A stretch of DNA of 49,809 nucleotides from Actinomycetota bacterium. Lineage in GTDB: Bacteria; Actinomycetota; Actinomycetes; Nanopelagicales; Nanopelagicaceae. Positions 2,912-8,258 of the stretch are shown one piece after another. The notes below the pieces were generated by a model. That model did not search any database. It was not told the DNA's origin and worked only from the letters and a program-made list of their open reading frames with translations. The translations under genes were made by a program, and so were the position numbers. How positions within the stretch are numbered: the first letter of the stretch is position 1; every line of letters starts with the position of its first letter. The stretch covers positions 1 to 49,809 of the forward strand of contig CANKXJ010000002.1 of assembly GCA_947487595.1 (NCBI GenBank), in the 5' to 3' direction.

Positions 2912-2987
2912 GTGGGGAGGGGTGGGGCTCAAAAGGGTAAATAGTGGCGAAAGGTGGTTGAAAAAGGAGGAAAGTGGAGTAAAGTGG
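2912..2987 (+). promoter_or_regulatory. 10-bp-periodic GTGG box array upstream of mraZ (candidate MraZ operator)
   Basis: GTGG at 2912, 2922, 2944, 2954, 2974 and 2984; degenerate units at 2934 (AGGG) and 2964 (AAGG). Confidence 0.7.
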
Positions 2988-3040
2988 GGAATTGAGCGCA
3001 GATATTAAGCGCAGCGAACCTGGGGAAGGGGGCGCTAAAA

Positions 3041-3472
3041 ATGTTTCTTGGCACCCACGAGCCACGCCTTGATGACAAGGGCCGTTTAATTTTGCCCGCG
3101 AAATTTCGCGAAGAACTCTCTTCAGGTTTAGTAATTACTAAAGGACAAGAACGTTGTCTCTATGTTTTTCCATCGGCAGAGTTTTCAGTAATTACAGAGA
3201 CGCTAAAACAAGCGCCAGTCACTGCAAAATCAGCTCGCGATTACATGCGTGTGATGTTTGCAGGTGCACACGATGAAATTCCAGATCGTCAAGGTCGCGT
3301 GACTATTCCTCAAGGTCTTCGCACATATGCAGGACTTGAAAAAGATTGCGTTGTTATTGGTGCAAATACTCGCGTTGAAATTTGGGATGCAACTTCTTGG
3401 AATGAATATCTAGCAGATCGCGAAAAGGGATTTGCCAATGTTTCAGAGGAGGTATTCCCAGGCTTGTTCTAA
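3041..3472 (+). CDS. mraZ: Transcriptional regulator MraZ
   Basis: [26 protein letters not shown]; 143 aa; first gene of the dcw cluster. Confidence 0.97.
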
Positions 3473-3474
3473 CT

Positions 3475-3576
3475 CTCTCATCTGTGGCCACCGCCGACCC
3501 TTCGAAAATAACGGCGCCCCTTCCCCGGCGCCGCTATAAAACAGATCCGTCGGCCGGCGGTGACCAGAGATGAGAG
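3475..3576 (+). ncRNA. Structured intergenic/5'-leader RNA upstream of rsmH (position resembles the actinobacterial mraW RNA motif)
   Basis: Arms 3475-3499 and 3552-3576 pair at 22 of 25 positions; inner hairpin CGGCGCC (3512-3518)-CCTTCCCC-GGCGCCG (3527-3533). Confidence 0.7.
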
Positions 3577-3634
3577 CACTGCAGTAAAGCGCAAGAAAAG
3601 AAAAAACTTACGGATGAGTTGAAAGGGGGAGAGA

Positions 3635-4588
3635 GTGAATAACAACGTTGCACATGTATCTGTGATGCTAGATCGTTGTATTGACTTACTGACCCCAGCA
3701 GTTCAAGCAAGTGCACACCCAGTTATTGTCGATGCAACCCTTGGCGCAGGTGGTCACACCGAGGCTCTATTCACTAAGTTCCCACATGTAACTGTTATCG
3801 GCATCGATCGTGATGCAGATGCCTTAGCAGCTGCAACTAATCGCTTAGCCCCATTTGCCAATCGTCTTCGCACATCCCATGCAACCTTTGATCAAATAGC
3901 AGATGTCGTGGCGTCCCACGGCTTTACAAAAATAGATGGCGCCCTCTTTGATCTGGGAGTTTCATCAATGCAGCTCGATCAAAGTGAGCGTGGTTTTTCT
4001 TACTCACACGATGCTCCGCTAGATATGCGCATGGATCGCAGCCAATCACTTACTGCGGCAGAGATTGTTAACTCTTATGAGCCAGGCCAGTTAGTGAAGA
4101 TTTTGCGCACATATGGCGAAGAAAAGTTTGCAACCAGAGTGGTGGAGAGAATTGTTAAGGCCCGTGCCATTGCACCGCTTAATTCAACTTCCCAGCTGGC
4201 CGATCTGATTAAAGAGGCGATTCCAGCGGCAACTCGTCGTACTGGCGGTAATCCAGCCAAGCGCACTTTCCAGGCACTTCGTATTGAAACCAATGATGAG
4301 CTCGGTGCAATTACACGGGCTCTTCCTGCAGCCCTTGGTCTTCTAGATATTGGGGCTCGTTTAGTAGTGATGTCATTTCAATCCCTTGAAGATCGCATCG
4401 TTAAAGAGTTATTTGTTGCATCGACAACCTCTGGCACACCACGTGGTCTGCCATTTGATCTCCCTGAATTTGCTGCCAAGTTCTCACTGGTTATTCGAGG
4501 CAGCGAAACACCAAGCACGGAAGAACTCAATGAAAATCCGCGCTCGGCATCTGTTCGTTTGCGTGCTATTGAAAGGGTGGCTGCATAA
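3635..4588 (+). CDS. rsmH: 16S rRNA (cytosine(1402)-N(4))-methyltransferase
   Basis: HVSVMLDRCIDLL, VDATLGAGGHTEA, FDLGVSSMQLDQSERGFSY motifs. Confidence 0.97.
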   Translation: MNNNVAHVSVMLDRCIDLLTPAVQASAHPVIVDATLGAGGHTEALFTKFPHVTVIGIDRDADALAAATNRLAPFANRLRTSHATFDQIADVVASHGFTKIDGALFDLGVSSMQLDQSERGFSYSHDAPLDMRMDRSQSLTAAEIVNSYEPGQLVKILRTYGEEKFATRVVERIVKARAIAPLNSTSQLADLIKEAIPAATRRTGGNPAKRTFQALRIETNDELGAITRALPAALGLLDIGARLVVMSFQSLEDRIVKELFVASTTSGTPRGLPFDLPEFAAKFSLVIRGSETPSTEELNENPRSASVRLRAIERVAA

Positions 4589-4995: not shown

Positions 4996-6787
4996 TTTTT
5001 CATTAGCTCACAATCGAATTAGAGCGCTCATCTTTTTATTGGCATTAGCTATGTTCGTATTTGGTTTGCGCTTAGTTCAGGTCCAGGCAGTGCAAGCGGG
5101 CGACTACCGCATGCGTGCTGTGAATGAAATGGAAAATACTAAATCTTTACCTGCCCCACGTGGTGAAATTACCGATATTAATGGAATCGCATTTGCCAGA
5201 AGCGTTGCTGCAACCAGCATTGTGGTTGATCAGACCCAAATTACAAACCCTGCTCGTGTTGCTACCTTCATCGCACCGATTCTTGATATGCCGGTTGCCC
5301 AAGTACAAGCCAGCATCACAGGTAAGCGCAAATGGAACATGGTCTATCAAAATGCTAAGCCAGCACTGTGGCAGAAATTGACTCAATCTATTTCTCAGTT
5401 CAATTCACAGTACCCAGCAATGAGTCCAGATCGAATTATTGGCTTCTTCCCAGAGCGCGGATATATTCGTGAGTATCCATCAGGCTCACTTATTGCCTCG
5501 TTAGTTGGCTTTGTTAATCGTGATGGCATCGGTGCAACTGGCCTTGAATCAAGTATGAATTCAATGATTTCAGGAATTGATGGCAAGTATTCATTTGCCA
5601 ATGGTTATGGCGCTGAGATTCCAGGTTCTCAATCAGAGATTATCCCAGCCCAAACTGGCACGACCGTTCGCTTAACCGTTGATCGAGATATTCAGTGGGT
5701 TGCATCGCAAGCTATCTCTGATGCCGTTAAGTCATCTAATGCCCTTAGTGGAACTGTCATTGTGATGGATCCAAAGACAGGTGAAATCCTTGCTCACGCA
5801 ACTGCGCCAACATTTAACCCTAATAACACCTCAAAAGTGGCACTTGTTGCAATGCGCAATCCTTCAGTCCAAGATGTCTATGAGCCAGGTTCAACGGGCA
5901 AGGTAATGACATTAGCTGCAGCCCTTGAAGAGAAGAAAGTAACTCCAGAGACAGTAATTACGGTGCCATATGCACTCAAGCGCTCAACCAAGGTTTTCCA
6001 TGATCACGAAAAGCATCCAACACAGTACTTAACAACTGCTGGTGTTTTAGCTGTTTCAAGTAATACGGGATCAATTCAAATTGGTGAACTTTTATCCAAC
6101 GATAAGTTCTATGAATACCTTAGTAAGTTTGGGGTTGGTTCAAAAACTGGTTCAGGTTTGCCAGGAGAATCCCGCGGAATCCTTCCTAAAGTAGCTGATT
6201 GGTCAGGAACCTCAGCGCCAACGATGGCATTTGGTCAGGGATATTCACTGACTGCAATGCAAGCCACAAGTATTTTTGCAACCATTGCCAATGATGGTGT
6301 TCGAGTTTCACCCACTGTGATTGCAGGAACTCGTGATTCAAGTGGAAACTTCACACCTGCTCCAGGTCGCACAAGCCAGCGAGTGATTAGCGCAGAGACT
6401 GCACAAGTAATGCGATTGATGATGGAGAGCGTTGTTTCTGGAAATGGAACTGCTCCAAGTGCAGCAATTCCTGGGTATCGCGTGGCAGGTAAGACTGGTA
6501 CAGCCCAGCGCATTGATGACACATGCGGTTGCTACCGCGGTTACACCGCTTCATTTATTGGCTTTGCACCAGCAGACAAGCCCGCCTATGTCATTAGCGT
6601 GACTATCCAGGATCCAAAAGGAATGCACTGGGGCGGTGTACTTGGTGGGCCAGTATTTAAGAAAGTGATGTCATTTGTTCTACAAAGTCGCCATATTGCA
6701 CCTACTGGCACAACATTTGATCCAATCCCTTTGAACAAAAAAGCGTTAGCTGCAAAGAAGGCCCAGGATGCAACGGCCAATAACTAA
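4988..6787 (+). CDS. ftsI: Peptidoglycan transpeptidase FtsI (PBP3-like)
   Basis: STGK (SxxK), SSN and KTGT motifs; N-terminal TM segment; dcw position. Confidence 0.93.
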   Translation: MGNFSLAHNRIRALIFLLALAMFVFGLRLVQVQAVQAGDYRMRAVNEMENTKSLPAPRGEITDINGIAFARSVAATSIVVDQTQITNPARVATFIAPILDMPVAQVQASITGKRKWNMVYQNAKPALWQKLTQSISQFNSQYPAMSPDRIIGFFPERGYIREYPSGSLIASLVGFVNRDGIGATGLESSMNSMISGIDGKYSFANGYGAEIPGSQSEIIPAQTGTTVRLTVDRDIQWVASQAISDAVKSSNALSGTVIVMDPKTGEILAHATAPTFNPNNTSKVALVAMRNPSVQDVYEPGSTGKVMTLAAALEEKKVTPETVITVPYALKRSTKVFHDHEKHPTQYLTTAGVLAVSSNTGSIQIGELLSNDKFYEYLSKFGVGSKTGSGLPGESRGILPKVADWSGTSAPTMAFGQGYSLTAMQATSIFATIANDGVRVSPTVIAGTRDSSGNFTPAPGRTSQRVISAETAQVMRLMMESVVSGNGTAPSAAIPGYRVAGKTGTAQRIDDTCGCYRGYTASFIGFAPADKPAYVISVTIQDPKGMHWGGVLGGPVFKKVMSFVLQSRHIAPTGTTFDPIPLNKKALAAKKAQDATANN

Positions 6788-8258
6788 CCATCATAAAAAA
6801 CTCTCTGCGCTATGCGCCATAGTTGGCGCGGAATCTATTTCCAAAGAGTTAGAGAGCATTGAGCTCAGTGGAATTGCCCAAGCTAGTAATGCAGTTTTAC
6901 CTGGAGATCTCTTTATTGCTCTGCCTGGTGAAAAATTTCATGGAGCCCAATTTGCATCCGATGCCATAGCCCGCGGGGCAGTTGCGGTTCTTACAGATTC
7001 ACAAGGTGCTCAAGATATAAAGGGTGTTCCCGTTCTTATCTCAACAAATCCAAGGCGGGCTGCTGGAATTGCAAGTGCCTGGTTTTATTCCGAACCAATG
7101 CGAGATCTCTATAGCGTTGGTGTCACAGGAACTAATGGCAAAACCACAGTAACAACGCTGCTTCACCAAATCATGACTACCGCAGGACGTGAAAGCGGAC
7201 TTATCGGAACTGTTGAAACTCGTATTGGCGTTGAAAGCATTGCAAGTAAGCGAACAACCCCTGAAAGCTCAGATTTACAGGCTCTATCTGCGGTGATGCG
7301 TGAGCGCCATATGCGCAATCTCATTATGGAAGTCTCAAGCCATGCAATTACGTTGGAGCGCATCCGTGGCAGCCACTTTGCTGTCGTTGGATTTACTAAT
7401 CTTTCACAAGACCATCTTGATTTTCATAAAGACATGGAAGATTACTTTGGGGCAAAAGCAAAGTTATTTACATTTGAATACGCTGATCTAGCAGTGATTA
7501 ATCTTGATAATCCTTATTGAAAGCGCTTAGCTGCACAAACAGCGCTACCAGTGCTTACTTTGTCTAGATTAGATACGAGTGCCACGTGGCACTATGCCTC
7601 GATTGCATCGGACTATGTTGGTGCATCGGTTTCAATACGCGGAAGTGGCGGAATCCTCATTGAAGGAAAAACTGCTTTGTATGGCGGCTTTAACTTTGAC
7701 AATCTTTTAATGGCAGTTGCCATTGCAGTTGAAAGTGGAATTGATCCCATTGATATCGCTGCCATCTTGCCAACCCTTACTGGAGCAGTTGGCCGGTTAG
7801 AGGCTGTGAGCCTTGGACAAAACTTCACAGCCCTAGTTGATTATGCGCACTCACCAGATGCAGTGAAGCGAGTTTTAGAAACAGCGTCAGAGATAGCAGA
7901 TGGCAAAGTTATTGCAGTACTGGGTTGCGGGGGAGATAGAGATAAAACTAAGCGCACCTTGATGGGTCAAGCACTTCACGAGGGCGCAGATATTGCTATC
8001 TATACCAGCGATAATCCGCGTTCTGAGAAAGCTGAAGACATTTTGGTTCAGATGGTTTTAGATATAGATGTGGTACCACCCAGTGAAGTAATCATTGATA
8101 GAGCCCAGGCTATTCGCACAGCGGTCAACTTGGCGCAAGCTGGCGATGTCGTGATGGTTTTAGGTAAGGGACATGAAAAGGGCCAAGAAATTAATGGCCA
8201 AGTGCATGAGTTCGATGATCGCATTGAGTTAGCTAAGGCGATTGAAGATAAAAAATGA
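6768..8258 (+). pseudogene. murE: UDP-N-acetylmuramyl-tripeptide synthetase MurE, interrupted by one in-frame TGA (7518-7520)
   Basis: ORFs 6768-7520 and 7551-8258 share a frame; TNGKTTVTTLLHQI precedes the stop and GCGGDRDKTKR and YTSDNPRSE follow it; reading NLDNPY*KRLAAQ. Confidence 0.85.

Follow-up and report, generated by a model that had tools for sequence, protein, structure and literature searches.

What is the RNA-like inverted repeat between mraZ and rsmH (mraW) for, and with what does its C-rich loop interact? We addressed this question in a window of 49,809 nucleotides, i.e. the whole stretch of DNA analysed, from a genome of the freshwater acI / Candidatus Planktophila lineage (Nanopelagicaceae). 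The mraW RNA motif (Rfam RF01746) was described by Weinberg et al. in 2010 (PMC2864571), and no mechanism has been assigned to it since that listing in the literature found. It heads the division and cell-wall operon of actinomycetes, mycobacteria included. Our best overall explanation, to which we give a probability of roughly 0.4, is that the element is an mraW RNA whose loop would repress mraZ by pairing and whose long duplex would be processed. The novelty lies in naming a concrete candidate partner, the mraZ leader, as a partner hypothesis of intermediate strength.

The first-pass annotation had reported arms at 3475-3499 and 3552-3576 pairing at 22 of 25 positions, and our recount gave the same figure. 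No other ungapped pair of 25-nt arms in the 49.8-kb window reaches 20 matches across a loop of 0-150 nt, and no such pair was found in five shuffles of the window. The GC-rich inner hairpin was also as described (CGGCGCC at 3512-3518, GGCGCCG at 3527-3533 and the loop CCUUCCCC between them), as was the richness in GC relative to the surroundings (0.62 over 3473-3578 vs 0.44 in mraZ and 0.46 in the window). The 106-nt fold of 3473-3578 has a minimum free energy of -53.9 kcal/mol (z = -7.89; 0/200 shuffles as strong). As z reaches just -1.79 over the wider segment 3440-3660, the structure corresponds to 3475-3576 and not to the whole range up to 3634 that had been delimited initially, the remainder (3577-3634), richer in AT, being a tail that contains the Shine-Dalgarno of rsmH. 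Attenuation, one of the roles suggested at that stage, is unlikely in its intrinsic form because no U tract follows the hairpin; no terminator-like site was found within 3473-3634.

Table 1. Features of the mraZ-rsmH locus, with positions in the window
Feature	Position	Strand	Basis and remarks
GTGG-type direct repeats, 10-nt spacing	2944-2989	+	Read directly; starts 2944/2954/2974/2984
mraZ leader hairpin AGCG-AA-CCU-GGGGAA-GGG-GG-CGCU	3013-3036	+	Predicted fold; GGGGAA in loop
GGGGAAG, exact complement of the element loop	3022-3028	+	5' of and overlapping the mraZ Shine-Dalgarno; start at 3041
mraZ	3041-3472	+	ORF; two PF02381 matches, 3041-3247 and 3254-3451
mraW RNA (RF01746), divergent member (very probable)	3468-3587	+	RF01746 match; lineage model gives 3472-3579; core 3475-3576
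Long stem, 5' arm	3475-3496	+	Pairs 3475-3483, 3485-3487 and 3489-3496 (lineage alignment)
Apical stem, 5' side	3510-3518	+	Lineage alignment; 7/9 pairs covary
Apical loop CCUUCCCC	3519-3526	+	CUUCCCC (3520-3526) invariant at scored class loci; predicted unpaired probability 1.00
Apical stem, 3' side	3527-3535	+	Lineage alignment
Long stem, 3' arm	3555-3576	+	99.4 % of cells paired; 7/20 pairs covary
rsmH Shine-Dalgarno region GAAAGGGGGA	3622-3631	+	Sequence; weaker candidate loop partner (-12.4 kcal/mol)
rsmH (mraW)	3635-4588	+	GTG start at 3635; first gene 3' of the RNA element

In other bacteria, MraZ is known to regulate transcription of the operon that encodes it. The GTGG repeats upstream of mraZ are MraZ-operator-like and overlap a promoter-like site (2958-2985; a 9/12 match, about as many being expected by chance). 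Directly 5' of these repeats, after the preceding gene, lies a terminator-like hairpin AAGGGCUCCCACCGGGGCCCUU with a U run (2871-2892). Elsewhere in the window, the murE frame (6768-7520, 7551-8258) is broken by a single in-frame TGA (7518-7521, NLDNPY*KRLAAQ), either an assembly error or a strain variant.

The structure was assessed on an alignment (A1) of 54 sequences from the Planktophila/acI lineage. Both sides change in 14 of the 29 pairs and 98.3 % of the cells are paired; none of 500 shuffles reached either the covariation or the pairing level, and slid versions of the structure gave at most 6 pairs. A lack of covariation in the long arms had been named beforehand as one outcome that would speak against the structure; on the contrary, the changes on both sides concern 7 of the 20 long-stem pairs as well as 7 of the 9 apical-stem pairs. 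Additionally, ~77 G-U cells were counted in the 54 sequences vs ~15 A-C cells and, even when leaving aside the single column pair that contributes 43 of the former, 34 G-U cells stand against 15 A-C cells. Such an excess of G-U over A-C is in favour of an RNA read from the mraZ-rsmH (+) strand rather than of a DNA palindrome. Judging from the aligned sequences, the element is a real RNA structure, with a fold under selection as coding-strand RNA.

Regarding family identity, the earlier proposal of an mraW RNA, made from position, is borne out by the search with covariance models: RF01746 is the best Rfam match between mraZ and rsmH (29.9 bits, E = 5.6e-4). The match is full-length (model positions 1-107 of 107) and covers the loop (CUUCCCC) as well as the GACC stretch in the 3' arm. 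Its score lies below the RF01746 gathering score of 50 bits, so a default Rfam scan misses the element; when gathering cut-offs were applied to the window, tRNA alone matched. The element stands upstream of mraW/rsmH in an actinomycete, which is the location of RF01746. When 53 other loci were searched with a model built from the lineage, elements of the mraZ-rsmH gap were recovered at most of them, e.g. L003 at 52.2 bits and L131 at 32.3 bits; the recoveries span the majority of the other actinomycete families tried. We consider that the element almost certainly represents a divergent branch of the mraW RNA, intercistronic on the mraZ-rsmH-dcw transcript. Streptomyces-like RF01746 matches at ~26 bits (e.g. 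G054 C1 at 6.5 Mb) are remote from rsmH and were discarded as probable chance matches.

In order to describe the distribution of the element, loci were gathered by using the rsmH gene as anchor, and not the RNA, so that the sample was not restricted to positives. The element is present at the same-genus loci for which the upstream region was in hand, and the CUUCCCC hairpin was found between mraZ and rsmH at all of the 169 scorable loci (169/169), which represent 39 groups (families) of the class. One further locus (L026) failed in scoring because its mraZ frame stops early, but it does have the element. RF01746 matches were obtained in 227 of the 297 genomes of the class sample, and 81/297 reach the cut-off; fast search filters skip several acI members that visibly carry the element (e.g. 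L063). Outside the class, three weak RF01746 matches only were obtained in a phylum sample of 198. The mraW RNA is near-universal in the class, and whole lineages fall short of the Rfam cut-off. Spread by phages was considered and gave no match. At three loci (L142, L145 and L174), a pair of CUUCCCC hairpins follows mraZ in the same gap, possibly through tandem duplication of the apical hairpin.

The best-conserved part of the element is CUUCCCC, and what this loop may pair with was examined among the gene leaders. In the Planktophila/acI lineage, the GGGGAAG of the mraZ leader is the exact complement of the mraW RNA loop, a relation that is new here. This motif occurs in 54/54 genus leaders and in 57 of the 63 loci having both features in a second collection, whose species overlap with the first; in two close relatives (L277 and L309), the loop is kept and the mraZ-leader site is gone. 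When the loop core was paired with the 37 gene leaders of the window, mraZ was best (-22.4 kcal/mol), followed by rsmH (-12.4 kcal/mol) and a third leader (-10.0 kcal/mol); in a first energy run, which took the 20-nt loop together with its stem, the stem dominated, so that the run was uninformative. Within the lineage, the mean fraction of shuffled loops pairing with the mraZ leader at least as well was 0.046. The G run is partly an ordinary Shine-Dalgarno (AAGGGGG), a role for which the GGGG located 5' of it is dispensable, and GGGGAAG persists where the remaining Shine-Dalgarno differs (L039, L059, L090). As the core loop and the leader hardly vary in the lineage, their relation, as read from these leaders, is one of conserved complementarity and not of covariation. 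In the same genome, GGGGAAGG occurs 12 times in 879 kb, two of these occurrences being within the mraZ-rsmH locus, and a search for CUUCCCCGG gave one occurrence. The ten other GGGGAAGG sites were rejected as trans targets, most of them lying inside open frames or lacking a convincing start codon.

Accessibility of the two partners was predicted as well. The element loop is always predicted unpaired, and the mraZ-leader site in 58 %. Of 73 distinct leaders, 89 % are predicted to fold with GGGGAA in a hairpin loop, vs 37 % (maximum 49 %) with shuffled flanks, in a test that is post hoc because the leader fold was noticed after the sequences had been inspected. Alternative mraZ-leader stems occur, e.g. 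AGCG/CGCU and CUGG/CCAG. A sister clade (L346, L347, L348 and L351) has a different, covarying mraZ-leader hairpin with a GGGG tetraloop, on stems such as GCAGAAC/GUUCUGC and GCGAAAC/GUUUCGC.

We tentatively propose, on these complementarities and predicted folds, the following mechanism for the Planktophila/acI lineage. Once transcribed, the element would expose its UUCCCC loop, which would pair with GGGGAA in the loop of the mraZ leader; this would take place in cis, with the leader ~500 nt to the 5' side within one mRNA, or, following processing, in trans. The loop-loop contact would comprise 6-7 bp and could extend to ~12 bp across the mraZ Shine-Dalgarno; it would block mraZ translation, so that MraZ would be limited during the synthesis of the products of rsmH and the downstream division genes. 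The long duplex, paired almost throughout, would be a likely RNase III-type processing site splitting mraZ from rsmH. In a broader formulation, which we hold to be doubtful, the mraW RNA would be the 3' half of a kissing switch: by docking on the mraZ leader, it would stop the translation of mraZ and tag the transcript to be cut between mraZ and the division genes. Several genera that lost mraZ would have retained the RNA for a different partner, and in one genus the loop would have decayed.

The genera devoid of mraZ provide natural experiments, some keeping the loop and one (g19) mostly losing it. mraZ is absent from several genera of one family (f19, genomes of 5-12 Mb), which we infer to be Streptomycetaceae. 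The CUUCCCC hairpin is kept at 38/38 loci examined in g116, g117, g123, g124, g127 and g128, all without mraZ. In g19, also without mraZ, the loop is intact in ~3/23 genomes and often shortened (e.g. GACGCUUCCGGCGCC), the outer stem being still visible; the shortened or mutated loops (L199, L134, L136, L141, L235, L237, L243-L245) amount to a natural loss experiment. Class-wide covariation between the loop and the mraZ leader was not found, 18 % of swapped pairs being as good as the own pairs, and loops were no better than shuffles against the mraZ leader except in the Planktophila/acI lineage and family f20. An exposed loop complementary to a G-rich leader, as in C-rich-loop antisense RNAs, is thus a trait of the lineage and not of the whole class. 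The genera without mraZ, together with the lack of class-wide covariation, rule out mraZ as sole and universal partner. Since genera without mraZ keep the loop, it has a role beyond mraZ, and elsewhere in the class it must also have another partner. As a separate observation, a second CUUCCCC is frequent in these genera in the internal loop just 5' of the 3' arm (L192-L196, L219, L220, L222-L224, L227-L230, L232-L234, L247, L248, L250, L254-L259), which would suggest a preference for two binding sites.

The main alternative to pairing with mraZ is a protein partner. CUUCCCC on the long stem would then be bound by a protein, such as one with affinity for C-rich RNA, for control of dcw/rsmH in cis, with a secondary or accidental complement in the leader. 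Such a protein would account for a loop that is invariant class-wide though leaders vary, for its maintenance where mraZ is missing, frequently alongside a second CUUCCCC copy on the same RNA, and for the fact that no RNA partner fitting class-wide was found; it leaves unexplained the conserved mraZ-leader complement and its presentation in a hairpin in the lineage. A KH-domain protein (such as KhpA/KhpB), PNPase or NusA might be guessed as binders, and RsmH or a further product of the operon might also bind, these candidates being chosen from general knowledge. We consider this explanation rather unlikely, and a protein could coexist with loop-leader pairing.

It is also conceivable, if improbable, that the element serves in processing or stability only: RNase III would cut the duplex, or the duplex would protect an end, so that mraZ would decay independently of rsmH and the downstream genes, and the loop would be important chiefly to folding or to the nuclease. 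Compensatory change has maintained a near-continuous stem of over 20 base pairs, which agrees with such a role, but a mere RNase III substrate has no need of an invariant CUUCCCC loop, and the element persists where no mraZ exists to separate. In Corynebacterium glutamicum, mraZ mRNA is cleaved by RNase III according to the passage of PMC8247434 that cites Maeda et al. 2016; this would favour processing, although the published cleavage sits in the mraZ coding region. Likewise, the 5' end listed for the C. glutamicum mraW leader (2,266,932) falls within the Rfam motif (2,267,021-2,266,916; PMC3890552), but may be a true start site. A sRNA candidate was reported upstream of mraW in Mycobacterium tuberculosis (PMC3526491), which also points towards processing. 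Finally, pairing of the loop with the rsmH Shine-Dalgarno just downstream, gating rsmH translation, is very unlikely: the rsmH leader is the second best of the window and GGGGGA occurs in 57/58 lineage rsmH leaders, but its pairing is weaker than that of mraZ in the lineage and own and swapped rsmH leaders do not differ, for which reasons it was rejected as main partner, and shuffled loops are as good in fractions of 0.67 (g116) and 0.37 (g127) in the genera without mraZ that have many loci.

By analogy, the published RNase III cleavage, 5' end, sRNA candidate and mycobacterial RNA B11 fit the proposed repression of mraZ by loop pairing with processing of the duplex. Among known systems, UpsM of Rhodobacter sphaeroides is also an RNA derived from a dcw transcript and adjoining mraZ, but in the account of it in PMC5089854 it is a 5' leader ahead of the dcw cluster in an alphaproteobacterium, and the likeness noted is one of origin and position. 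The actinobacterial C-rich-loop RNAs 6C and B11 share exposed C-rich hairpin loops and G-rich targets near start codons, and the C-rich loops of B11 repress a reporter carrying a G tract in its 5' UTR (PMC10470900); these are free-standing sRNAs, whereas the present element is intercistronic, and Rfam scans of the window reported no match to the 6C model. The closest relative is the mraW RNA motif itself, with which the element shares the position between mraZ and rsmH/mraW, a long closing stem whose 3' arm contains GACC, and an apical hairpin with a CUUCCCC loop. It differs from the motif by its score (29.9 vs 50 bits), by a stem of its own (UGGCCACCGCCGACC/CCGUCGGCCGGCGGUGACCAGAG) with 1x1 mismatches and by the matching GGGGAAG in the mraZ leader.
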